64,000 nucleotides of DNA from contig JAJIZT010000001.1 of assembly GCA_029948415.1 (NCBI GenBank), positions 333,428 to 397,427 on the forward strand. The letters are read 5' to 3'. Shown here piece after piece: positions 30,358 through 45,222 of this stretch. The notes beneath the pieces are model-generated. The model had not been told where the DNA came from. It saw nothing but the letters and a program-made list of their open reading frames with translations, and ran no database searches. How positions within the stretch are numbered: the stretch's first letter is position 1; each line of letters opens with the position of its first letter. The stretch comes from Cenarchaeum symbiont of Oopsacas minuta. GTDB taxonomy: Archaea > Thermoproteota > Nitrososphaeria > Nitrososphaerales > Nitrosopumilaceae. The translations under genes and the position numbers were made by a program.

Positions 30358-30869
30358 TGGAATATCGAATTAAAGATATAGAAAAAGCGTTCAACTGTAC
30401 AATAATTGGTCACACATCTGATGGTGGTTATGAGATAGACATTGATGGTAAAAAATCCAATCTGCAGATATTATCTACAACTTCACATGGAATGGAGTTT
30501 GTACTAGATGGAGAATATCATAGCGTAAAATATCTGGTAGCGTCAACTTCAACAATGGACATGATCGTAGATGGTGTTCCAATATCACTAGACATGCATA
30601 CAACTCTAGATGAAATTGTATTCAAAAACTCTGGCGGTGCAGGTAAGGCAGTATCTGATATATTGTTATTTAGCAAGATACCTGGTAAAATAATTACAGT
30701 AACAGTAAGTGTGGGAGATACAGTTAATGTAGACGATACCATATGTACGCTAGAATCAATGAAGATGCAAATTTCAGTAAAGGCACACCGTGCAGGAACT
30801 ATAAAATCACTAAAGACTGAGATTGGTGCAAGCATTGCAAAAGGCGATCTAATAGCTGAGATAGAATAA
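30357..30869 (+). CDS. accB: Biotin carboxyl carrier protein
   Basis: This is a 170-residue carrier subunit starting at the ATG that overlaps the accC stop. An upstream ATG at 30339 would lie inside accC. The C-terminal biotinyl domain begins about residue 100. The biotin attachment Lys is K136 in LESMKMQ, the usual E-(A/S)-M-K-M motif. The N-terminal half probably docks it on the other subunits. It completes the carboxylase operon. Confidence 0.9.
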   Translation: MEYRIKDIEKAFNCTIIGHTSDGGYEIDIDGKKSNLQILSTTSHGMEFVLDGEYHSVKYLVASTSTMDMIVDGVPISLDMHTTLDEIVFKNSGGAGKAVSDILLFSKIPGKIITVTVSVGDTVNVDDTICTLESMKMQISVKAHRAGTIKSLKTEIGASIAKGDLIAEIE

Positions 30870-30908
30870 ATGTCATTTTATATCACGATTCATAAATAAA
30901 TGCAGTTT

Positions 30909-30989
30909 GTATGAAGTCACGTCCCTGCCTATAATTATCAAGAAAGTTCTGTATTTACGCACAAAAACGCAGAGTAGCTGACCTCATAC
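30909..30989. mobile_element. 81-bp MITE, copy 4, upstream of the cas operon
   Basis: The ends are GTATGAAGTCA and TGACCTCATAC, and the perfect 8-bp duplication TGCAGTTT lies at 30901-30908 and 30990-30997. It lies between accB and cas3, 130 bp before the cas3 start. It might affect read-through from the carboxylase operon or cas expression, though nothing in the sequence proves this. Confidence 0.88.
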
Positions 30990-31119
30990 TGCAGTTTTTA
31001 AAGTATTTCAACTAACAACGAGTATGATAGATTGCAGTCATTTTTGTATATTATGATAATTATCGTTTATTATATCGAAATTTATAACATTTTAATAATT
31101 AACTATAATACACATAATT

Positions 31120-33405
31120 ATGTATTATGCTCACACTGGCATCCCAAATGACAAACAAACATGGCAAAAACTCTCTGAACATTTGAATAATGTTGCAAAT
31201 GATGCATCGATATATGCAGAAAAATTTGGTTATGGTAAGATAGCATATGTAATTGGAATTTTACATGACATTGGAAAATATTCTGATTCGTTTCAAAGAA
31301 AATTAGATGGTGTATCTCAACGCGTAGATCATTCTACAGCAGGAGCACAGCTTGCTAATGAAAAATATCCTCCATTAAATTTTATTATCTCTCATTGCAT
31401 TGCTGGCCATCATGGAGGTTTGCTTGATACATTTAATTCAGAAGGTGGTTCTGGATTATGTGATAGATTATCTAAAAAGATCGATGATTATAGCAGTTAT
31501 CGTGATGAGCTATCGTTACCTGATAATGATTTGTGTCCAAATAATTTTGCCCCTATGTTAGTTGATCCACCTTTTTCTTTTAGAATTGGTGTCTTGATTA
31601 GAATGTTATATTCATGTCTCATTGACGCAGATTGGGAAGATGCTAGCAAATACAATGATAAGATAACTAACAATAAAGAAAATAATATTGATGTATCATA
31701 CAGACTTGATTTACATACAATCAAAACCAAGTTATTTACATATATTAAAAAAATTGAATCTGATGCGCGATTAAATGAACAACGTGAAAATAATATAAAG
31801 ATACTCGATTTACGTGCAAAAATACTACAATCTTGTAAACACGCTGCAAAAGAAAGACAAGGTGTATTTACTTTGACAGTTCCTACAGGTGGAGGAAAAA
31901 CTTTGTCATCATTAGCATTTGCATTAGAACATGCATTAAAACATAATATGGATAGAATAATATATGTAGTTCCATTTACAAGTGTAACCGAACAGATAGC
32001 AGAAGTATTTCGTAAAGCTATTGGAGATGATTCCATACTTGAACATCATAGTGCATTTGATAATAGCAACATGTCGGATATTGGATTAAATAAATTAAAG
32101 ATTGCTTGGGATAAATGGAATTATCCTATTGTTGTTACAACTACCGTGCAATTTTTTGAGTCGTTGTTTTCAAATAAACCTAGAAAATGTCGTAAATTAC
32201 ACAATATTGCAAATAGCGTAATAATACTAGATGAAGCTCAGAGTATACCACTTGAAGTGCTTCGTCCGTGTGTTGCCATGCTTGACACACTATCAAAATA
32301 TTTTAACACTACGATAGTTTTGTGTACTGCAACACAACCTACTCTTAACAAATCTGATGGATTTGAAGGTGGATTTGACGATGTATATGAAATAGCATCT
32401 AATCCATCTAAAATGGCGATAGATATGCAGAGAACTAGAATAATAAATCTTGGTACAATAACAGATAATGATCTTGCTGGACGACTTGTTGGGCGTAAAG
32501 AATTTTTTGATTATGATAAAGATAACATGAAACATGTACTGAATAACCACAAACAAGTTTTATGTATAGTTAATACACGAAAACATGCAAAAGATCTGTA
32601 CGAACATATTGATGCAGATCATAATACATATCATTTAAGTGCATTAATGTGTCCAAAACACAGATCAACAAAATTGAAAGAGATTAAATGTGCATTAAAA
32701 TCGAATAAAAAATGTATTGTTATTAGTACTTCTCTGATCGAAGCTGGTGTAGATGTTGATTTTGGTGCAGTATATCGTGAAATTAATGGACTTGAATCAA
32801 TTGCACAGGCTGCAGGTAGATGTAATAGGGAAGGATTGCACAACATATCGAATGTTTATATTTTTAATTCTAGTTCTTTATCACCATCCATACAATTACG
32901 CGCATCTGCGTGCATGAGTATAATGGATAAATTTAAAAATCCTTTATCCCCAAAAGCTATGTTAGAATATTTTAAGAAAATATATTGGACAAATATAGTG
33001 GGAGATAGTGACGGTTTAGATAAAAAAAACATTATGAAATTATGTTTCTCAGGATGTGACAATATGGAATTTGGATTCATGTCTATGGCACACAAGTTTA
33101 AACTTATGAATGATGTAACAAAATCAATCATAATACGATATGACGAGCATGCAAATTTTTTAATAGAAGAATTAAAAAAGAAACAAAAACTTGGCGATAT
33201 CACCAAACGGCTTCAACCATATATTGTACAAGTATACAAAAATGATTTTATACGCCTTGAATCTGCAGGTGCTATATCTAAAGTGGCTGAAGAAAAATTT
33301 GATGATCAATTTTGGGTATTAGATAATCAAATATATGATTTTGATACATTTGGTCTTAAATTAGTTGACCCGGCATACCGTGATGTAGAGGATAATATAA
33401 TATGA
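31120..33405 (+). CDS. cas3: CRISPR-associated helicase-nuclease Cas3 (HD + DExH)
   Basis: This is a 761-residue effector nuclease. The HD domain occupies the first 230 residues, with H49-D50 in ILHDIGKYS and a later AGHHGG. The SF2 helicase follows, with Walker A VPTGGGKTLSS near residue 251, the DEAQ box in ILDEAQS near 371, and motif VI AQAAGRCNREG near 566. It is recruited by the Cascade complex to nick and degrade invader DNA in the 3'-5' direction. It is the first gene of the operon and overlaps the next by 4 bp, so the seven activities are probably made from one transcript. Confidence 0.95.
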   Translation: MYYAHTGIPNDKQTWQKLSEHLNNVANDASIYAEKFGYGKIAYVIGILHDIGKYSDSFQRKLDGVSQRVDHSTAGAQLANEKYPPLNFIISHCIAGHHGGLLDTFNSEGGSGLCDRLSKKIDDYSSYRDELSLPDNDLCPNNFAPMLVDPPFSFRIGVLIRMLYSCLIDADWEDASKYNDKITNNKENNIDVSYRLDLHTIKTKLFTYIKKIESDARLNEQRENNIKILDLRAKILQSCKHAAKERQGVFTLTVPTGGGKTLSSLAFALEHALKHNMDRIIYVVPFTSVTEQIAEVFRKAIGDDSILEHHSAFDNSNMSDIGLNKLKIAWDKWNYPIVVTTTVQFFESLFSNKPRKCRKLHNIANSVIILDEAQSIPLEVLRPCVAMLDTLSKYFNTTIVLCTATQPTLNKSDGFEGGFDDVYEIASNPSKMAIDMQRTRIINLGTITDNDLAGRLVGRKEFFDYDKDNMKHVLNNHKQVLCIVNTRKHAKDLYEHIDADHNTYHLSALMCPKHRSTKLKEIKCALKSNKKCIVISTSLIEAGVDVDFGAVYREINGLESIAQAAGRCNREGLHNISNVYIFNSSSLSPSIQLRASACMSIMDKFKNPLSPKAMLEYFKKIYWTNIVGDSDGLDKKNIMKLCFSGCDNMEFGFMSMAHKFKLMNDVTKSIIIRYDEHANFLIEELKKKQKLGDITKRLQPYIVQVYKNDFIRLESAGAISKVAEEKFDDQFWVLDNQIYDFDTFGLKLVDPAYRDVEDNII

Positions 33406-35873
33406 AATCAAATGTGAGATTAAAGGTATGGGGTGATTGGGCATGCTTTACTCGTCCTGAAATGAAAGTAGAACGTGTAAGCTATGAAATAATGACACCA
33501 TCAGCTGCAAGAGGAATTTTAGAAGCGATATATTGGAAACCCCAAATGCATTGGATTATTGACAAAATATATGTCATAAATGACATTAATTTTATTAATA
33601 TTGGAAGAAACGAAGTATCACAAAAAGCAAGTTCTAATTCTGTAATAATTATAGAAAACAAAAGACAACAACGTGCATCTAGAATTCTTAAGAATGTTGT
33701 ATATGTAATTGATGCCCATATCGAAACAAATGATCCATCTGAAATTATAACTAAACATGTTGAAATATTTGAAAGACGTGCTAGAAAAGGTCAATGTTTT
33801 CAACAACCATATCTTGGATGTAGAGAATTTCCTGCCTCGTTTGAATTATTAGATAAAAATCATTCAATAAATAATACTATAGATATGACCGCAGATTTAG
33901 GATTAATGCTTCATGATATTGATCATACAGATAAAATGAAACCATATTTTTTTAATGCCAAGCTTGAAAAAGGTATAATGAATATTCCGTTATGGAAATA
34001 TCGCAAGAAAAATTCTACTCCCATTGAAAATACCGGACATACTGTAAAAATGTCAGTGTTAAACGCGTTGTATGATTATTACAAGTTGATGGAAAATACT
34101 GCTGATATGCCGCCACCAGGATATGCTTATGAAGGTGTTTCATTTATAATTGAAATAACAAAGAATGGTAAATTAGATCAAATTTATAATATTAGTGATG
34201 ACAAAAATAAATCTGAATTTATGATGATCCCAACCTTAAAAAGATCACGTAACCTGAAATCAAAATTCTTATCTGATAACATAGCGTATGTATTTGGAAT
34301 TCCCGCTGATCGTGTTGCAGCTGAAAAACATCGTTTATTTGTAGAACTCCATAAATCTTTACTCAAAGATGCAAAACATACAGCATTAAAAGCATTCAAA
34401 TTATTCCTTGATTCATTTGAACCAATTGATTTGTATAATGCATGTAAAAAATCACACATAGAAAAAAAAGAATTTATTGATAATACTAGCAATATTGTTT
34501 TTAAAATAAAAGACGGTGATGATCTTTTACATAATTTATCGGAGGCTAAAAAAATATGGTCAACTTATACACTTGATGAAAACAGCATAATGAAAAATGA
34601 CGCAACATGTTTAATTACAGGAACTCGAGGAATAGTGGCTAGATTACATCCACCAATAAAAGGTGTAGCTGGTGCACTTCCTACTGGTTCTAATATTATT
34701 TCATTTAATAATGATTCATTCGAATCATACGGAATGAAACAAGGAGAAAATTCATCAATATCTCCATTTGCAGCACATGCATATGTTACTGCTGTAAATC
34801 ATATCATACGTAATAATAAAATGGTTATGGGGGATGTTACAATGTTATATTGGTCATATTCAACTGGCTCATTTCAACATAAACTATTAGAAATGATCGG
34901 GCATACACCATCAGAAAATAATAAAAATACTGAACCTAACATGCAACAAAACAAAGAACTAAAAAAACTATTATTACAAACAAAAAGAGGCATTTTTCCA
35001 GAGAAAGAAATACGTAAAATCATGAAAAATAATGATGAAATATCATACAAGACTCCATGCTATATTTTGGGATTTAAACAAAATCGTGCTAGATTATTTG
35101 TTTCATTTTGGTTACCACTGACATTAAAAAAGCTCTTTGAAGCAGTAAAACAACATAATGAAGATCTACGTTTAGAACCTATTCCACAAGACTGGATAGA
35201 TAGAGCCATGCCAATTAACTACTTGTTGAAACTAGCATTAACTTCAAGTAAAAGTAAGGAAAATATTCATTCTACTATGACAGCTTCTGTTATACGTGCT
35301 ATTTTTAATGGAAGTCGTTATCCATATTCATTGTTATATATGATACTTGCTAGAATACGTGCAGATCATAACATATCATGGGTTAGAACATTGTTTATAC
35401 GTGCATACATTGTAAGGTATGAAAGATTTAAAACAGCTAATATAACTAAACATGGTAGTGATTATATGATGGCATTGGATGAATCAGAAGTTAATTCTGG
35501 ATATAGACTTGGCAGGCTCTTTGCCGTATTAGAAAAAATACAAAAGGATGCAATAAATCCTGGTGCCAACATAACAGTAAAATATTTTGCATCAGCATCA
35601 TCTACTCCATCACGAACTTTTCCGACACTTATCCGTACTGCCCACTATCACATGTCCACACTTGCAAAAAATGAAGCAAAAAAAGGTATTGTGATATGGC
35701 TGGATAAAATGCTAAACGAAATAATTAGTGGACTTGATACTAGCATGCCAAAGACATTAAATATAGTAGATCAAGGGAGATTTGCTATAGGATATTATCA
35801 TCAAAAACATAGTTTTTACATAAAAAAAGATACATCTAAATCAATAAATAACAGCCAGCTAGACGATGAATAA
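33402..35873 (+). CDS. cas5-cas8c: Natural Cas5c-Cas8c fusion (type I-C Cascade subunit)
   Basis: This is a single 823-codon frame holding two type I-C proteins. Residues 1-205 are Cas5c/Cas5d: VRLKVWGDWACFTRPEMK at the start, GILEAIYWKP with Y44, TKHVEIFERR with K118-H119, and GQCFQQPYLGCREF. Y44, K118 and H119 line up with the Tyr, Lys and His (Y46, K116, H117) of the Bacillus halodurans Cas5d RNase. From about residue 217 (MSVLNALYDYYKLM) the protein is Cas8c/Csd1, ending with SVIRAIFNGSRYPYSLLY and YRLGRLFAVLEKIQ. Separate genes are the rule in I-C. No stop or frameshift lies between the halves. The Met at 217 could in principle allow a separate Cas8c, and an internal Cas11c start is also possible near residue 689. 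Confidence 0.92.
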   Translation: MKSNVRLKVWGDWACFTRPEMKVERVSYEIMTPSAARGILEAIYWKPQMHWIIDKIYVINDINFINIGRNEVSQKASSNSVIIIENKRQQRASRILKNVVYVIDAHIETNDPSEIITKHVEIFERRARKGQCFQQPYLGCREFPASFELLDKNHSINNTIDMTADLGLMLHDIDHTDKMKPYFFNAKLEKGIMNIPLWKYRKKNSTPIENTGHTVKMSVLNALYDYYKLMENTADMPPPGYAYEGVSFIIEITKNGKLDQIYNISDDKNKSEFMMIPTLKRSRNLKSKFLSDNIAYVFGIPADRVAAEKHRLFVELHKSLLKDAKHTALKAFKLFLDSFEPIDLYNACKKSHIEKKEFIDNTSNIVFKIKDGDDLLHNLSEAKKIWSTYTLDENSIMKNDATCLITGTRGIVARLHPPIKGVAGALPTGSNIISFNNDSFESYGMKQGENSSISPFAAHAYVTAVNHIIRNNKMVMGDVTMLYWSYSTGSFQHKLLEMIGHTPSENNKNTEPNMQQNKELKKLLLQTKRGIFPEKEIRKIMKNNDEISYKTPCYILGFKQNRARLFVSFWLPLTLKKLFEAVKQHNEDLRLEPIPQDWIDRAMPINYLLKLALTSSKSKENIHSTMTASVIRAIFNGSRYPYSLLYMILARIRADHNISWVRTLFIRAYIVRYERFKTANITKHGSDYMMALDESEVNSGYRLGRLFAVLEKIQKDAINPGANITVKYFASASSTPSRTFPTLIRTAHYHMSTLAKNEAKKGIVIWLDKMLNEIISGLDTSMPKTLNIVDQGRFAIGYYHQKHSFYIKKDTSKSINNSQLDDE
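35466..35873 (+). CDS. Possible internal Cas11c start within the fusion gene
   Basis: In type I-C the small subunit Cas11c is translated from inside cas8c. Two consecutive in-frame ATG codons (35466 and 35469, residues 689-690 of the fusion) would give a 134- or 135-residue product covering YRLGRLFAVLEKIQKDA and the C-terminal helices, close to the known Cas11c size. Only a weak GGTAGTG-like ribosome site precedes them. Another in-frame Met at residue 626 follows a TAAGGA but would give a longer product. Confidence 0.35.
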   Translation: MMALDESEVNSGYRLGRLFAVLEKIQKDAINPGANITVKYFASASSTPSRTFPTLIRTAHYHMSTLAKNEAKKGIVIWLDKMLNEIISGLDTSMPKTLNIVDQGRFAIGYYHQKHSFYIKKDTSKSINNSQLDDE

Positions 35874-36766
35874 TGGCGGTAAACCCTATACCAAATAGAT
35901 ATGATTTAGTATATTTGTTTGATGTATCAGATGGTAATCCAAATGGTGATCCTGATGCAGGAAATATGCCTAGGATGGATCCAGAAGATAATATGGGTCT
36001 TACCTCTGATGTTTCAATAAAACGTAAAATCAGAAACTATGTTCAAATGGCAAAAAAAGAAAGCGATGGATATCAAATTTATGTGAAAGAAAAAGCTGTA
36101 CTAAATAAATTAAACGAACAAGCAAGAGAAAAATTGCTTGGGAAAGAAAAACCAGACGATTTAAAAAAACTTCCTAAAGATGAAGACAAAGCAAAAAACT
36201 TGGTGTCCTATATGTGCTCTAAATATTATGATATACGAACATTTGGTGCTGTAATGAGTACTGGAGTAAATTGTGGTCAAGTGCGTGGACCTGTTCAATT
36301 TTCATTTGCCCGTAGCATAGATCCAATATTACCAATGGAGATAACAATAACACGTATGGCTGTTACTAAAAAAGAAGATGCCGAAAAAGGGCAGACTATG
36401 GGTAAAAAACACATAGTCACTTATGCTCTATATAGAGCTCATGCACATATATCAGCTAATCTCGCAGACCAGTCTGGTTTTTCAGAAGATGATCTACATC
36501 TTTTGTGGAATGCCTTACTTGGCATGCATGATCATGATCATTCTGCCACACGGGGTGAGATGGGACCTCGTGGTCTTGTCATATTCAAACATGATAGTGC
36601 CATTGGAAATGCTCCTGCTAGACAGTTACTTGAAAGAATAAAAATTAAAAAAGTAGAAGGTGGTGCCCCACGTAGTTATGAAGATTATAGAAAAAATATT
36701 GTCATAGATGAATCAAATATGCCTGATGGTGTTAAAATTGACATCAAACTAGATCCTAGAACATGA
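35873..36766 (+). CDS. cas7: Type I-C Cascade backbone protein Cas7 (Csd2)
   Basis: This 297-residue protein belongs to the Csd2/Cas7c family. It starts NRYDLVYLFDVSDGNPNGDPDAGNMPR, typical of the family, with DVSIKRKIRNYV next and GVNCGQVRGPVQFSFARSIDPI in the middle. Several copies coat the crRNA spacer in the Cascade complex. It overlaps the fusion gene by 1 bp and cas4 by 4 bp. Confidence 0.93.
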   Translation: MAVNPIPNRYDLVYLFDVSDGNPNGDPDAGNMPRMDPEDNMGLTSDVSIKRKIRNYVQMAKKESDGYQIYVKEKAVLNKLNEQAREKLLGKEKPDDLKKLPKDEDKAKNLVSYMCSKYYDIRTFGAVMSTGVNCGQVRGPVQFSFARSIDPILPMEITITRMAVTKKEDAEKGQTMGKKHIVTYALYRAHAHISANLADQSGFSEDDLHLLWNALLGMHDHDHSATRGEMGPRGLVIFKHDSAIGNAPARQLLERIKIKKVEGGAPRSYEDYRKNIVIDESNMPDGVKIDIKLDPRT

Positions 36767-37398
36767 TTACTAAATCTGAACTTGATCTACTCCCAATCTC
36801 TGGACTACAGCATTTTGTATTCTGTCCACGTCAATTTGCTCTCATACACATTGAACAAATTTGGATTGATAACGTTTTAACTGCGGAAGGGCGACAATTG
36901 CATAAAAAAGCTCATGAATTAGGCACTAAAATAGTGGGTCGTGATATGAAAATAGTTAGAGGTATGCCACTACGATCAATGCAGATTGGTTTGACTGGAA
37001 TCGCAGATATTGTTGAATTTTTTAGGACTAAAGATGGTTGGATTCCTTTTCCTATAGAGTATAAACGTGGTAAACCAAAATCACACCGTGCAGATGAAAT
37101 ACAACTATGTGCTCAAGCTATATGTCTTGAAGAAATGATTGGACACAAGGTTCCTGTAGGTGCTATATATTATAACAAAAATAAATCTCGTCACAAGGTA
37201 GTTTTTGATGATAATTTACGATCTCTAACTAGTGATGCATCACGTTCTATGCATAATCTTTTTGATTCAAGAATTACTCCATCTCCAATATATGGAAAAT
37301 ATTGTGAATCATGTTCCATCTTACATCAATGTATGCCAAAACAGATTGAACGAAAAAAAAATATTAAAAATTGGATATCCGAATATGTGAAATCATGA
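36763..37398 (+). CDS. cas4: CRISPR adaptation nuclease Cas4
   Basis: This 211-residue RecB-like nuclease has an iron-sulfur cluster. The first cluster Cys is in HFVFCPRQFAL, the PD-(D/E)xK core includes GIADIVEF and PIEYKRGKPK, and the last three Cys are in YCESCSILHQCMPK. Cas4 trims prespacers and helps select those with the right PAM, together with Cas1-Cas2. It overlaps both neighbours by 4 bp. Confidence 0.93.
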   Translation: MITKSELDLLPISGLQHFVFCPRQFALIHIEQIWIDNVLTAEGRQLHKKAHELGTKIVGRDMKIVRGMPLRSMQIGLTGIADIVEFFRTKDGWIPFPIEYKRGKPKSHRADEIQLCAQAICLEEMIGHKVPVGAIYYNKNKSRHKVVFDDNLRSLTSDASRSMHNLFDSRITPSPIYGKYCESCSILHQCMPKQIERKKNIKNWISEYVKS

Positions 37399-38435
37399 CA
37401 CAAATACAAAATACACTATATGTGACAACACATGGTTCATACCTGAGTAAAGATGGTGAAAATATACTAGTAAAGTCTGAAGGCAATATTGTCATGAGAG
37501 TTCCTGTACATGTGCTAGATGGTATAGTATGTATTGGTCGAATTATGATTAGTCCAGCACTCATGGGTCATTGTATGAAACATGGGTTGTCTATATCGTT
37601 TTTGACTGAAAATGGATATTTTTTAGGAAGAGTGGTAGGATCTGTTTCTGGAAATGTATTACTACGACGCGAACAGTATAGACATGCAGATGATCCGATC
37701 AAAAGTTTCAATATTGCAAAAAATATAGTAATTGGAAAAATACTCAACCAGCGTACTGTATTAGATAGAGCGTTAAGAGATTATAATGATGTAATGCATA
37801 TAAATGATAGAGACTCATTATGTGCAACTAAAATACACTTTACACAGGCAGTACAGCATATACAAAATGAAAATAATATTGATGTATTACGTGGGATAGA
37901 AGGCGAATCGGCAAAAAAATATTTCGGGCAATTTAATACACTTATCAGAACTAACAATGAAGAATTTCGTTTTATAGGTAGAAGTCGACGACCTCCATTG
38001 GATCGAATAAACTCTATGATGTCATTTGTTTATACATTGTTAACACATGATATACGTTCAGCATTAGAATCTGTTGGTCTTGATCCGACAGTAGGATTTT
38101 TGCATACTGATAGACCTGGAAGATTAGGATTGGCCTTGGATATTCTAGAAGAATTTAGGCCATGGTTTTGTGATCGATTAGTAATATCACTCATAAATCG
38201 TAAGCAAATACATGTGGATGATTTTATAATCATGCCTGATGGTGCATGTATGATGACTGCAGCTGGAAGGAAAATACTGATCATGGCATATCAAAAAAGA
38301 AAACGAGATCCTATTAAACACGGATTCTTGGATGAAAAATCATTTGTTGGAATAATGTGGCATTTGCAGGCTAAATTATTAGCACGTTATTTGAGGAAAG
38401 ATTTAGATGAATATCCTCCATTTCTATGGAGATGA
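37395..38435 (+). CDS. cas1: CRISPR integrase Cas1 (I-C type)
   Basis: This protein has 346 residues from the ATG that overlaps the cas4 stop (ATGA). An earlier ATG at 37371 would overlap cas4 by 28 bp and is less likely. The family layout is clear: N-terminal beta domain (TLYVTTHGSYLSKDGEN), then a helical domain with IEGESAKKYFGQFN (catalytic Glu), GFLHTDRPGRLGLALDILEEF (catalytic His) and the Asp in the following helix. It inserts new spacers at the leader end of the array. Confidence 0.94.
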   Translation: MTQIQNTLYVTTHGSYLSKDGENILVKSEGNIVMRVPVHVLDGIVCIGRIMISPALMGHCMKHGLSISFLTENGYFLGRVVGSVSGNVLLRREQYRHADDPIKSFNIAKNIVIGKILNQRTVLDRALRDYNDVMHINDRDSLCATKIHFTQAVQHIQNENNIDVLRGIEGESAKKYFGQFNTLIRTNNEEFRFIGRSRRPPLDRINSMMSFVYTLLTHDIRSALESVGLDPTVGFLHTDRPGRLGLALDILEEFRPWFCDRLVISLINRKQIHVDDFIIMPDGACMMTAAGRKILIMAYQKRKRDPIKHGFLDEKSFVGIMWHLQAKLLARYLRKDLDEYPPFLWR

Positions 38436-38439
38436 TTGT

Positions 38440-38730
38440 ATGATAGTCGTAGTAAGTTATGATGTGAGAACGAGTAGCCCTGAGGGTAGAACAAGGTTAC
38501 GCCGTTTAGCAAAAACATGCCAAGATTATGGTCAACGTGTACAACTATCTGTATTTGAAATATCTCTAAGCTCTACTGATTGGGTTTACGTTAAAGATCG
38601 TATATTAAATGAAATGAATAAAAATGAAGATAGTGTGAGATTTTATTATTTGGGAAATAATGCCAAAGGGCATATTGAACATATTGGAAAAAAACCAAGT
38701 ATTGACTATGATGGCGCCTTGATTGTTTAA
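38440..38730 (+). CDS. cas2: CRISPR adaptation protein Cas2
   Basis: This protein has 96 residues from the ATG at 38440, four bases after cas1. An earlier ATG at 38407 lies within cas1 and would add an unconserved 11 residues. It starts MIVVVSYDVRTSS and contains RTRLRRLAKTCQDYGQRVQLSVFE, the standard Cas2 ferredoxin-like fold. It forms the central dimer of the Cas1-Cas2 integration complex. It is the last gene before the leader and array. Confidence 0.94.
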   Translation: MIVVVSYDVRTSSPEGRTRLRRLAKTCQDYGQRVQLSVFEISLSSTDWVYVKDRILNEMNKNEDSVRFYYLGNNAKGHIEHIGKKPSIDYDGALIV

Positions 38731-38991
38731 ATGCGAACAATATGCATTCACATCACAAAGACGATGTTCGCACACTTGATATATATATAAAATTCAGCCG
38801 AAAGCATAAAATTAGTGATAATGTCCAATTATATCAAAAAACGACAACATATTCGCAAAAAATCAACATGATATATGTTAATGCATTATAATCTATAAAT
38901 TGTTTATAAATTTAACAAAAAAATAAGATTTTTTCTAGATGTTTTAGTAAATTAATAAATATTACATATTATAGTGTAAAGTAATAATAGA
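38731..38991 (+). promoter_or_regulatory. CRISPR leader with inverted repeat and TATA-like box
   Basis: This is 261 bp of AT-rich sequence between cas2 and the first repeat, with no frame. TGCGAACA (38732-38739) and TGTTCGCA (38765-38772) form an 8-bp inverted repeat just after the cas2 stop and may end the cas transcript or bind a protein. TTTATAAA (38903-38910) is a plausible archaeal TATA box for the pre-crRNA. The position next to cas2, and the more mutated repeat at the opposite end, agree with transcription rightwards. Confidence 0.65.
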
Positions 38992-41900
38992 GACACAACG
39001 TCCTCTTCGGAGGACGAGGATTGAAACAAAAAAATCTTGGTCAATTGGCGAGAGGTATGCGGGACACAACGTCCTCTTCGGAGGACGAGGATTGAAACTT
39101 GAGATACGAGATGAGATAAGAGCCACAAGCAAGACACAACGTCCTCTTCGGAGGACGAGGATTGAAACTGTAAAATTATATGTCTCACGGGCATGTTGTG
39201 ATAGACACAACGTCCTCTTCGGAGGACGAGGATTGAAACTTACAACCCAGTCGCCCTCTCGATCATATTGGGCTGACACAACGTCCTCTTCGGAGGACGA
39301 GGATTGAAACATGGCGTCACACTCATGGTGTCGCGGATATGTGAGACACAACGTCCTCTTCGGAGGACGAGGATTGAAACATCAACATGATGATAAATTA
39401 AAGGCAATTATCAAAGACACAACGTCCTCTTCGGAGGACGAGGATTGAAACACGGTGCAGTTTTAGTCATACTTGGATCACTCGTACGACACAACGTCCT
39501 CTTCGGAGGACGAGGATTGAAACATAAAACTGCCTTGAACAATCTCTCAACACTTGCTGACACAACGTCCTCTTCGGAGGACGAGGATTGAAACGAGGGC
39601 GGCGCCGATTAACGAGGATTAAACTGCACGACACAACGTCCTCTTCGGAGGACGAGGATTGAAACTATCTCCTTGTGGCGCGACTATCACCACTGTGCTG
39701 TAGACACAACGTCCTCTTCGGAGGACGAGGATTGAAACCTGTTTGCCCATGCATTAGATGGACGGATTGTGGAGACACAACGTCCTCTTCGGAGGACGAG
39801 GATTGAAACAACTACGAAATTGTGAGGGCTTACGGGGCATTATGACACAACGTCCTCTTCGGAGGACGAGGATTGAAACACAAATTTAAAAAATGTAAAC
39901 ATACACATGACATCAGACACAACGTCCTCTTCGGAGGACGAGGATTGAAACTTGCCTGCATGTTGTATTTTTGCGATCATTTTTAGGTGACACAACGTCC
40001 TCTTCGGAGGACGAGGATTGAAACGCTATGTTTGCTTTTCTTACTTTGTTCCAAGCCATGACACAACGTCCTCTTCGGAGGACGAGGATTGAAACCAGTT
40101 GTACACGCACTCACGTCGTAATGCATCCATGACACAACGTCCTCTTCGGAGGACGAGGATTGAAACTATATATTAAAGTATGAGAATACCCATGCCAAAG
40201 ACACAACGTCCTCTTCGGAGGACGAGGATTGAAACTTCTATCAATCACTTACAAGAGGTGTATATGTTGACACAACGTCCTCTTCGGAGGACGAGGATTG
40301 AAACAGAAGGCGGAAGTATGAATGCTAGATTGACTATAAAGGACACAACGTCCTCTTCGGAGGACGAGGATTGAAACACTTTGAAAAAAAATTAAATGTT
40401 TACCATGCCACGCACGACACAACGTCCTCTTCGGAGGACGAGGATTGAAACTCTCCCAAAATACGCACTCAAGTACTTGGACAAGACACAACGTCCTCTT
40501 CGGAGGACGAGGATTGAAACACTTGAAAAAAAATTAAATGTTTACCATGCCACGCAAGACACAACGTCCTCTTCGGAGGACGAGGATTGAAACTCTCCCA
40601 AAATACGCACTCAAGTACTTGACAAATAGACACAACGTCCTCTTCGGAGGACGAGGATTGAAACTTGTTAGCGCCCATGCGTCTGCACCAAATCTATTAG
40701 ACACAACGTCCTCTTCGGAGGACGAGGATTGAAACTTGTTAGCGCCCATGCGTCTGCACCAAATCTATTAGACACAACGTCCTCTTCGGAGGACGAGGAT
40801 TGAAACGTCTCTGATCTGCTCTTGCAGCATATGGTCGCCAGGACACAACGTCCTCTTCGGAGGACGAGGATTGAAACGTCTCTGATCTGCTCTTGCAGCA
40901 TATGGTCGCCAGGACACAACGTCCTCTTCGGAGGACGAGGATTGAAACGCTGTCAACACTTGTTATACCAAGACTTTCAAGCGACACAACGTCCTCTTCG
41001 GAGGACGAGGATTGAAACAGATCAGGTGTGCCTAATGACGAGATCGACGATCGACACAACGTCCTCTTCGGAGGACGAGGATTGAAACTATATTTTTGTC
41101 ATCGTCTAAATCTACATCTGCAGACACAACGTCCTCTTCGGAGGACGAGGATTGAAACGTTTTGGATGGAGTTTCTGATGCTTCTTGTCTCACGGTGGAC
41201 ACAACGTCCTCTTCGGAGGACGAGGATTGAAACAAATCCATCTGAAATTTGCTAAAATTAGCATAATTGACACAACGTCCTCTTCGGAGGACGAGGATTG
41301 AAACAAATCCATCTGAAATTTGCTAAAATTAGCATAATTGACACAACGTCCTCTTCGGAGGACGAGGATTGAAACTCGTGTATATCAACATGGCGACATA
41401 GAGCGAAATCGACACAACGTCCTCTTCGGAGGACGAGGATTGAAACCCGTTTGTCATAACAGGAGATGGGGATACAAGAGAGACACAACGTCCTCTTCGG
41501 AGGACGAGGATTGAAACGACTAAACTGAATAATGTTATGCGTGGACTGAGACGGACACAACGTCCTCTTCGGAGGACGAGGATTGAAACCCACATTAGGC
41601 TCATCATCTTTAAAGAGATCAAATGACACAACGTCCTCTTCGGAGGACGAGGATTGAAACATTATCTGGGTTTGCGATATTATGGTATAGGTAACTGACA
41701 CAACGTCCTCTTCGGAGGACGAGGATTGAAACCCAGCGGTAAAGACTATCTCGTAACAAATTAATCGACACAACGTCCTCTTCGGAGGACGAGGATTGAA
41801 ACGTATCACGCTCTACACAATCATGACAGTATATTTTAGACACAACGTCCTCTTCGGAGGACGAGGATTGAAACGGAATTGGTCCAGTGTAACCTTTACC

Positions 41901-44719
41901 GTATAACAGATTGACACAACGTCCTCTTCGGAGGACGAGGATTGAAACCACAACGCTAAACCACCCATCTCCAGATACTGACAGACACAACGTCCTCTTC
42001 GGAGGACGAGGATTGAAACAGTTGCTATTGATGGAATACGGCTTGAGTTTGCGGACACAACGTCCTCTTCGGAGGACGAGGATTGAAACTCTAGCACAGA
42101 TCAATTAGCGAATTCGCCAGAAACGACACAACGTCCTCTTCGGAGGACGAGGATTGAAACGATACCACGCTCTATACCCATCTGTATCATGCCTCCAGAC
42201 ACAACGTCCTCTTCGGAGGACGAGGATTGAAACATCGTCATCACGAGTTATGATTATATTATGACTGAGACACAACGTCCTCTTCGGAGGACGAGGATTG
42301 AAACGTATCTATCAAAAAGGCATATGGTATATCGGATAAAGACACAACGTCCTCTTCGGAGGACGAGGATTGAAACTGTATAGTGCGTATAGTACTGCAC
42401 TCCCACCTATTGACACAACGTCCTCTTCGGAGGACGAGGATTGAAACTACGTACAAAAATGAAGGGCTTGAGATTAACGATAGACACAACGTCCTCTTCG
42501 GAGGACGAGGATTGAAACAGATATTGCGTTGTTTCAACACTCATGGATTACCAGACACAACGTCCTCTTCGGAGGACGAGGATTGAAACAGGTGCAAGGC
42601 GCCAAATCCTCTCGCAATATCCCAGACACAACGTCCTCTTCGGAGGACGAGGATTGAAACTTTGGGGGTTTTGTTGCTAAGTCGTATGTCGTTATTTACA
42701 CAACGTCCTCTTCGGAGGACGAGGATTGAAACTGTGGCAAGCTACATCAGCGGTAATGATACACTTAGACACAACGTCCTCTTCGGAGGACGAGGATTGA
42801 AACTTGATCGGTCATGTCATCTATTTGATATGTCATAGCAGACACAACGTCCTCTTCGGAGGACGAGGATTGAAACGCACCACCATACCCAGTACTGCCG
42901 TTAACGCAGGAGACACAACGTCCTCTTCGGAGGACGAGGATTGAAACAATCAATCGGCTTTAGCGGCGTATTCGGCACGAACGACACAACGTCCTCTTCG
43001 GAGGACGAGGATTGAAACGGCTGATGTGCGCTCACGTTTTGTTATTGCGTCGTGACACAACGTCCTCTTCGGAGGACGAGGATTGAAACAGGGATTTGAC
43101 CAAAGAAGAAGTAGAAGCCATACACGACACAACGTCCTCTTCGGAGGACGAGGATTGAAACAGTAGCGCACCTGCTGCCGCACCAAGAAATACAAGACAC
43201 AACGTCCTCTTCGGAGGACGAGGATTGAAACTAAATCTAAAACTTAATGACATCAGAACCAACAAGACACAACGTCCTCTTCGGAGGACGAGGATTGAAA
43301 CTAAATCTAAAACTTAATGACATCAGAACCAACAAGACACAACGTCCTCTTCGGAGGACGAGGATTGAAACCTTGTATAGACTTTGTACCAATTACTTTA
43401 ATCGCGACACAACGTCCTCTTCGGAGGACGAGGATTGAAACTTATGTCACGCATTATTGTTGCCATATCTGACCTTGACACAACGTCCTCTTCGGAGGAC
43501 GAGGATTGAAACTGAGAGCCCGCTATGCGAAACGTGCAACAAAGGACACAACGTCCTCTTCGGAGGACGAGGATTGAAACTCTTGTGTCATGGGTACTAA
43601 TTTGGGCGTTTTATCGACACAACGTCCTCTTCGGAGGACGAGGATTGAAACAGCCGAATCGCAAAAATGACTCGACGCAAACAATGGACACAACGTCCTC
43701 TTCGGAGGACGAGGATTGAAACTGGTTCCGATTTTTTGCATCACGCATGATCTTGTGGACACAACGTCCTCTTCGGAGGACGAGGATTGAAACTGCTATT
43801 GTGCAGTTATCTTTTCTGACCGATCCGTGACACAACGTCCTCTTCGGAGGACGAGGATTGAAACAGGGATTTGACCAAAGAAGAAGTAGAAGCCATACAC
43901 GACACAACGTCCTCTTCGGAGGACGAGGATTGAAACTCCATGTGGTGTTGTCAGATGGACTATGCGCGCATGGACACAACGTCCTCTTCGGAGGACGAGG
44001 ATTGAAACGCGTCAACGTAAGATTTTGGACATGTGTCATCAGGACACAACGTCCTCTTCGGAGGACGAGGATTGAAACTCCAAAGGGCGCAAAATCTGCT
44101 GAAGAGGCTGCAAGACACAACGTCCTCTTCGGAGGACGAGGATTGAAACTCTTGTGTCATCTCGGTTAGTTTAGGGGTTTTGTCGACACAACGTCCTCTT
44201 CGGAGGACGAGGATTGAAACAAGCATTAGAGGAGGTACTCCTCTAATGGGCCAAGACACAACGTCCTCTTCGGAGGACGAGGATTGAAACGTCAAGGGAC
44301 TGACGTACCCCCATTACGACACCGTGACACAACGTCCTCTTCGGAGGACGAGGATTGAAACCTTGTCAGCCATTTAGTATGCAAGGGTTGAGGACCGGAC
44401 ACAACGTCCTCTTCGGAGGACGAGGATTGAAACAATAAGCTTAATGATGTTCTAACAAATATCATAAAGACACAACGTCCTCTTCGGAGGACGAGGATTG
44501 AAACTCAGCGTGCCAAGTCCTCTACTCGCTCTTGCTGCACGACACAACGTCCTCTTCGGAGGACGAGGATTGAAACAAAAACAAATCCGAGGATCTAATC
44601 GGCGGTACTGGACACAACGTCCTCTTCGGAGGACAAGGATTGAAACGCCATGTAGAGACGGTGTGCAAATCTGTTGATTAGACGACACAACGTCCTCTTC
44701 GGAGGACGAGGATTGAAAC
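38992..44719 (+). CRISPR. Type I-C CRISPR array, 81 repeats and 80 spacers
   Basis: The 36-bp repeat starts GACACAACGTCCTC, has the loop TTCG and ends GAGGACGAGGATTGAAAC. It contains a 7-bp stem, CGTCCTC/GAGGACG, closed on a UUCG tetraloop, and leaves an 11-nt 3' part (AGGATTGAAAC) after the stem, matching the 11-nt crRNA handle made by Cas5d in type I-C. I counted 81 repeats and 80 spacers of 32-39 bp (mostly 34-36). Nearly all repeats are identical. Repeat 53 (42697) starts with T, and repeat 80 (44611) has G to A in the stem. Several spacers are duplicated or related (see findings). Transcription is read as rightward from the leader. Confidence 0.97.
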
Positions 44720-44742
44720 ATGAAATATTTACTAAATAAAAT

Positions 44743-45222
44743 CTAGTTTGATTTTAAAAATTCTTTAATCTCTGCATAATTTGGTTCTTTTAATGGATCT
44801 TCTGATACCCATTTGTATCCAATTTTGCCGTTTTTGGTTATGATGAATATTGAACGCTTTGCTGCATTATAGTCTTTAACATGAAGCAGGTGTGGCATTA
44901 AAACATCATAGTCTTTTATCGTGGAGCTAGTATAATCGCCAAGAATTGGAAATGTGAGATTGTTCTTTTCTGCAAATGCCTTGTTTGCAAACGGTCCATC
45001 ATTACTTATTGCAACAACTTTTGCATCCAAACCCTCAAGCTCGCTACTCGAATCACGAAATGAACACAGTTCAGTCTCACATACTGGAGAGCTGGCAGCG
45101 ACAAAAAATGCAATCACGACATTTTTTCCAGCAAACTCTTCTAATTTACGCATCTTTAGTTCAGTATCGACTAGCTCAAAATTCGGTGCCATATCTCCTA
45201 TATTGACCATGTATGTTTTCAT
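44743..45222 (-). CDS. Peroxiredoxin (AhpC/TSA, BCP-like)
   Basis: This is a 159-residue thiol peroxidase. The active-site region is AASSPVCETELCSFRD, with peroxidatic C48 and a second Cys C53 five residues on, the BCP/PrxQ arrangement. It has a full thioredoxin fold, from MAPNFELVD to IKEFLKSN. It reduces hydrogen or organic peroxides in the cytoplasm, valuable to an aerobic ammonia oxidiser. A later Met (residue 5) is an alternative start. It stands alone, ending 23 bp from the last CRISPR repeat. Confidence 0.9.
   Translation of the reverse strand: MKTYMVNIGDMAPNFELVDTELKMRKLEEFAGKNVVIAFFVAASSPVCETELCSFRDSSSELEGLDAKVVAISNDGPFANKAFAEKNNLTFPILGDYTSSTIKDYDVLMPHLLHVKDYNAAKRSIFIITKNGKIGYKWVSEDPLKEPNYAEIKEFLKSN

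Follow-up and report, generated by a model that had tools for sequence, protein, structure and literature searches.

Cas5c and Cas8c in a single reading frame of a type I-C CRISPR-Cas locus from a Cenarchaeum symbiont

In type I-C systems of clustered regularly interspaced short palindromic repeats (CRISPR) and their associated proteins (Cas), the interference complex Cascade contains seven copies of Cas7, single copies of Cas8c and Cas5c, two small subunits and one CRISPR RNA (crRNA), according to passages of PMC7684278. The same passages describe Cas5c-Cas7-crRNA as stable without Cas8c, and Cas8c together with the small subunits as thought to be added last. Fusions of the large subunit with Cas5 have been reported before. 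A Cas8-Cas5 fusion was published for an incomplete type I-C system, described in excerpts of PMC10910872 (Science 2023) as being without Cas3. Among I-F3 systems, Vibrio cholerae Tn6677 has a fused Cas8/5 (passages of PMC10188703), while a one-base change splits a cas8/cas5 fusion in Shewanella (passages of PMC12452197). For Thaumarchaeota, type I-B is named in the passages of PMC6563490, and those of PMC6697440 and PMC9289680 name no subtype; in the open-access literature, nothing was found that joins CRISPR, Nitrosopumilus and type I-C, subscription papers being mostly outside this search. The present study deals with a window of 64,000 nucleotides (nt) from the Cenarchaeum symbiont of Oopsacas minuta, which carries a type I-C operon with cas5c and cas8c in one frame. 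It is interpreted here, with a probability of roughly 0.6, as a natural, lineage-specific joining of Cas5c and Cas8c within a type I-C system that was acquired horizontally and is normal in other respects.

One frame for Cas5c and Cas8c

The gene in question and its parts are arranged as follows (positions refer to the window):

33402-35873, plus strand: fused cas5c-cas8c gene, 823 amino acids, single frame without internal stop
33402-33998, plus strand: Cas5c domain, residues 1-199, a pre-crRNA endonuclease by family
33990-34049, plus strand: linker, 20 residues between Pro196 (33987-33989) and Met217
34025-34027 and 34045-34047, plus strand: stops of the two other frames (TGA and TAA, respectively), both just upstream of Met217
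34050-35873, plus strand: Cas8c domain, residues 217-823, its first residue being the native Cas8c methionine
35466-35873, plus strand: Cas11c with a putative internal start ATG ATG (residues 689/690), same frame as the fusion

Cas5c and Cas8c are encoded in one uninterrupted frame, and the identity of both domains is far beyond chance. The NCBIfam profile for Cas5c (TIGR01876) matches residues 7-199 with 179.3 bits (cut-off 85), and that for Cas8c (TIGR01863) covers residues 220-812 and profile positions 1-587 of 588 with 419.4 bits (cut-off 218.65). The Cas8c half additionally reaches 458.8 bits with PF09709, and Pfam as well as PADLOC agree with NCBIfam on both domains. In the Cas5c half, K118 and H119 are retained, the equivalent positions of the aligned relatives featuring lysine in 87/88 and histidine in 82/88 loci; this Lys/His pair is presumed to be catalytic, following work on Cas5d of Bacillus halodurans. 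The folds of both halves are supported by the predicted structure, in which the linker is of low confidence (predicted local distance difference test below 50 at residues 203-213). One alignment (A3), which laid Cas8 rows onto the Cas5 half, was kept out of the structure model. No solved chain spanning both halves was present among the structural matches listed. The same 823-codon frame is found at G000:C1:366829-369297, which belongs to the same assembly and hence gives no independent confirmation.

At the junction, Met217 (34050) aligns with the native start of Cas8c, and the spacing between Pro196 and this methionine is 34 nt longer than in the usual layout. It is these additional 34 nt that bring cas5c and cas8c into one frame. 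In the relatives, the Cas5c C-terminus past the GxxxxP motif comprises 9 residues in 64/88 loci, 4-8 in 14 and 23-24 in two, the motif not being found in the other eight.

The start position of Cas11c is conserved. A start codon occurs there in each of the 82 loci aligned, namely the window and 81 relatives, compared with a median of 18/82 at other columns, and the region 35466-35873 matches solved Cas11c chains. For the window alone, the chance of a start codon in such a stretch is 0.22; accordingly, the evidence for the Cas11c start lies in the family pattern. Judged from this sequence conservation, Cas11c is probably made from an internal start within the fusion gene.

The locus and its chromosomal setting

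The fused gene is part of a complete operon which is followed by a CRISPR array:

31120-33405, plus strand: cas3 (HD nuclease and helicase), 761 amino acids, ATGA overlap with the fusion gene
35873-36766, plus strand: cas7c, by family profile match
36763-37398, plus strand: cas4, by family profile match
37371-38435, plus strand: cas1c, by family profile match, exact start uncertain
38407-38730, plus strand: cas2, by family profile match, exact start uncertain
38992-44719, plus strand: CRISPR array with 81 repeats (36 nt each, 79 of them identical) separated by 80 spacers, of which 75 are distinct
30870-44742, no strand: entire inserted segment, flanked by accB (last base 30869) and by a peroxiredoxin gene (44743-45222, minus strand)

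The operon features the Cas8c/Csd1 signature, Cas5c in the place of Cas6 for crRNA processing and the gene order cas3-cas5-cas8c-cas7-cas4-cas1-cas2 of type I-C. Separate Cas5c and Cas8c proteins, replaced here by one frame, are customary and not a formal criterion of this subtype, so the fusion does not remove the system from it. A scan of six proteins of the operon gave no match to Cas6, the remainder of the genome lying outside that search. The repeat folds into a UUCG-capped hairpin with an 11-nt 3' tail. Such a hairpin is the kind of substrate cut by Cas5c. Within the array, five spacers are present twice, namely the adjacent pairs 24/25, 26/27, 32/33 and 60/61 as well as 58/69, which suggests that units were duplicated. 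The duplicated-spacer units lie at 40629-40770, 40771-40912, 41198-41339 and other positions.

The insertion is located in a chromosome of conserved gene order, with genes which, from their sequences, we take to be accB, peroxiredoxin and, beyond the latter, nuo. In four of five relatives (G003, G053, G045, G096), accB and the peroxiredoxin gene are neighbours with 11-25 nt between their aligned ends; the stretch fetched from the fifth (G366) revealed neither the peroxiredoxin gene nor the nuo genes. Because the flanking genes adjoin each other in relatives, the I-C locus constitutes a clean insertion. A contig mix-up was considered and is ruled out by the gene order shared between the flanks and these relatives. 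The genome shows one archaeal 16S rRNA match and one Cas1 match, the latter being the Cas1 of this locus. A Cas5c-Cas8c match was obtained in this genome only, among 250 genomes of the family (presumably Nitrosopumilaceae; 131 at least 90% complete) and 398 of the phylum sample. In the Cas8c tree, the window sits on a long branch of its own, surrounded by bacterial rows, without supported neighbours and apart from two Methanobacteriota rows. On this phylogenetic basis, a bacterial donor of the I-C locus is likely. The third-position G+C content amounts to 0.17-0.21 in the cas genes measured between 31120 and 38435, compared with 0.27-0.34 in three neighbouring host genes.

Part of this had been anticipated by an earlier note, written by a model from the DNA letters, in which the Cas11c start inside the fused frame went unmentioned. 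Its single 823-codon frame with a full Cas5c and a full Cas8c is borne out by the profile matches on both halves and the lack of an internal stop. Likewise, the operon matches confirm the exact order cas3, cas5, cas8c, cas7, cas4, cas1, cas2 which it had given, and the thaumarchaeal host agrees with the synteny of the chromosome.

Relatives and competing explanations

The occurrence of the fusion was studied in 88 relatives, comprising the best 80 of 590 genome-contig candidates and eight plasmid loci. In 81/88, the stop of cas5c and the start of cas8c share 4 nt (ATGA), with cas8c in a different frame; L003 is counted among the remaining seven by the start rule alone, its annotated start overlapping by 4 nt too. 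None of the 88 is fused at the junction, which sets an upper limit of about 3.4% for the frequency of natural fusion. Both subunits are normally two proteins, as the earlier note had stated. Matches were further obtained in 212 of 1,249 genomes from phylum samples (74/317, 31/319, 25/314 and 82/299); at least four of these (centre genomes) are shared with the 88 relatives, some lack one of the genes, and part of the matches are distant. Among the matches listed for these 212 genomes, there was no stop-free fusion. Sixteen loci with long frames or same-frame matches were followed up, and no stop-free frame ran through both genes in any of them. The 15 with a Cas5 and a Cas8 match each showed an intervening stop or differing frames, L273 being without a Cas8 match. 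Several of the 16 carry cas5c and cas8c in one frame, with no more than a few bases and a stop codon in between; a fusion by one change is therefore easily reached and yet was not seen. L258 and L259 are one step short of fusion, with both genes in the same frame and the stop codon followed at once by ATG. L260 (2061-4499) has an in-frame stop in cas5c and cas8c spread over two frames, giving the look of a decaying or misassembled effector. In viral contigs, 0/10 loci are fused, nine having both matches, among them L237 with the C-terminal end of Cas8 only. There (L237, 4-740), Cas5c is directly followed by a C-terminal, Cas11-like piece of Cas8c, most of cas8c seemingly being missing. A search of genome contigs and viral contigs with the full-length fused protein as query revealed no relative.

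Several of these results weigh against a natural and functional fusion. It is a single occurrence with respect to the relatives and the phylum samples, and it is known from one genome, as no second genome of the same species was found. Besides, both other frames stop shortly before Met217 and the native Cas8c methionine is retained, a pattern expected of two separate genes. A Shine-Dalgarno-like stretch precedes the Cas11c start in 69/82 loci, the window not being one of them. The Cas8c half is moreover the most diverged relative to its Cas5c (mean residual -4.8, the lowest of 81 loci, closely followed by L038 with -4.7), which may reflect fast or relaxed evolution. Finally, the contig shows more frame-broken conserved genes than the control (6/459 in 426 kb of contig C1 vs 3/458). 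For this count, open reading frames (ORFs) of G003 were compared with contig C1 after filtering the queries for overlap, and the reverse direction served as control. Six is a lower bound, since an earlier, smaller pass had given two changes for o68, which was counted once, and three for o222, which was uncounted. The total of ten "internal stops" from that earlier pass was set aside, as most of them derived from antisense-ORF queries or sequence outside real genes.

The lack of fused relatives, the stops directly ahead of the native methionine and the frame-broken genes of contig C1 speak for an assembly or sequencing error. Because stops in both other frames precede Met217, the fusion could be created or abolished by one indel in the stretch from about 33990 to 34025-34045; if it were an error, cas5c would in truth end at TGA 34025-34027 or TAA 34045-34047 and cas8c would begin at ATG 34050. 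Such an error is nevertheless unlikely. At a density of 6 to 10 breaks in 426 kb, the 36-56 nt of the junction would be hit with a probability of about 0.0005-0.0013, four of the six breaks are clustered at C1:564-580 kb, and none is located in the window, where 21 comparable genes (19.8 kb) were free of frame changes. The longest single-base run in the junction is just AAAAA. Moreover, separate genes would require an unusual gap of 2 or 22 nt instead of the ATGA overlap. The breaks themselves lie at C1 positions of about 287596, 328569 and 564150-579410, four of the six being near the 16S rRNA region. The broken gene at C1:328569 resembles argH by its sequence.

Even with a real fused frame, a separate Cas8c might also or mainly be made by internal initiation at Met217. 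The exact placement of this methionine at the native start would allow it, and Cas11c of type I-C ordinarily arises by internal initiation, as stated in passages of PMC7684278, its start position being conserved. The fused frame no longer permits reinitiation past the cas5c stop, by which cas8c is probably translated at ATGA overlaps, and no Shine-Dalgarno-like stretch is visible upstream of 34050; cas3, cas7, cas4 and cas1 do not differ in the latter respect. This possibility is regarded as improbable, if slightly less so than an indel. Far less credible is a decaying effector which has kept adaptation and lost interference, with the fusion as its mark. The divergence of Cas8c beyond that expected from Cas5c would fit such a decay, as would the fact that no protospacers turned up in G003, in 50,697 phage records or in the part of contig C1 beyond the array region, other contigs of G000 being outside this search. 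Nevertheless, the cas frames are of full length, the Lys/His pair of Cas5c is kept and the array repeats are almost uniform, while a lack of protospacers is expected with poorly sampled archaeal viruses.

A proposed tethered Cascade compared with known systems

A complete, interference-capable I-C system whose Cascade cap is one chain (Cas5c-tether-Cas8c), with Cas11c derived from the same gene, is slightly favoured. We infer that the fused protein is made and works, and that it confers an advantage in assembly. One long polypeptide would be made from 33402-35873, the N-terminal Cas5c half of which would cut pre-crRNA at the base of the repeat hairpin and remain on the 5' handle. The flexible linker would hold on to the Cas8c half, the presumed reader of the protospacer adjacent motif (PAM) and recruiter of Cas3, while Cas7 and the internally started Cas11c would fill out the complex. 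The PAM of type I-C systems is TTC; none was found for this locus. The gain would concern Cas8c, which in standard I-C is a late addition and, together with the small subunits, can be lost again, whereas it would here join as part of the same chain. The earlier note had regarded the fusion as the source of a 1:1 stoichiometry. This is not supported, as both subunits are already present once each in the I-C Cascade described in the passages of PMC7684278; given that and the last position of Cas8c in assembly, the tether would make its addition intramolecular with unchanged stoichiometry. If true, three subunits would come from one gene and Cas8c would be permanent in the crRNA-bound core. A real fusion would further mean that nature has already tried a covalent Cas5c-Cas8c in an I-C system complete with Cas3, a layout which could yield I-C tools of fewer parts. 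Thereby, the question of whether late arrival or loss of Cas8c is limiting for I-C Cascade becomes testable.

None of the systems compared unites a complete operon including cas3 with Cas5c in first place, a host of this group and a kept Cas11c start position. The fusion in the excerpts of PMC10910872 joins the same two subunits in the same subtype. It differs in apparently being without Cas3 and in being proposed as a DNA binder, whereas the window has cas3 and adaptation genes; it is moreover named Cas8-Cas5, so its order may be reverse to that of the window, where Cas5c comes first. The I-F fusions, to which the earlier note had drawn a parallel, do offer one, the I-F3 (Tn7-like CRISPR-associated transposon) Cas8/5 likewise being a single chain made up of the large subunit and Cas5 (passages of PMC12452197 and PMC10188703). 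Nevertheless, I-F3 is another subtype, nuclease-deficient and tied to transposition, whereas the effectors of the window match I-C models instead of being of I-F type (Cas8f, Cas7f, Cas6f), and a full cas3 is present. No Tns or TniQ protein was found among the six operon proteins, the flanks being outside that scan. The type I-C Cascade of Desulfovibrio vulgaris (7KHA, 8DEX, 8DEJ) shares with the window the gene order Cas3-Cas5c-Cas8c-Cas7c-Cas4-Cas1c-Cas2 (plasmid pDVUL01), the folds of both halves and the location of Cas11c inside Cas8c. It differs in that Cas5c and Cas8c are two genes with an ATGA overlap, while in the window both are joined in one frame by a longer linker.
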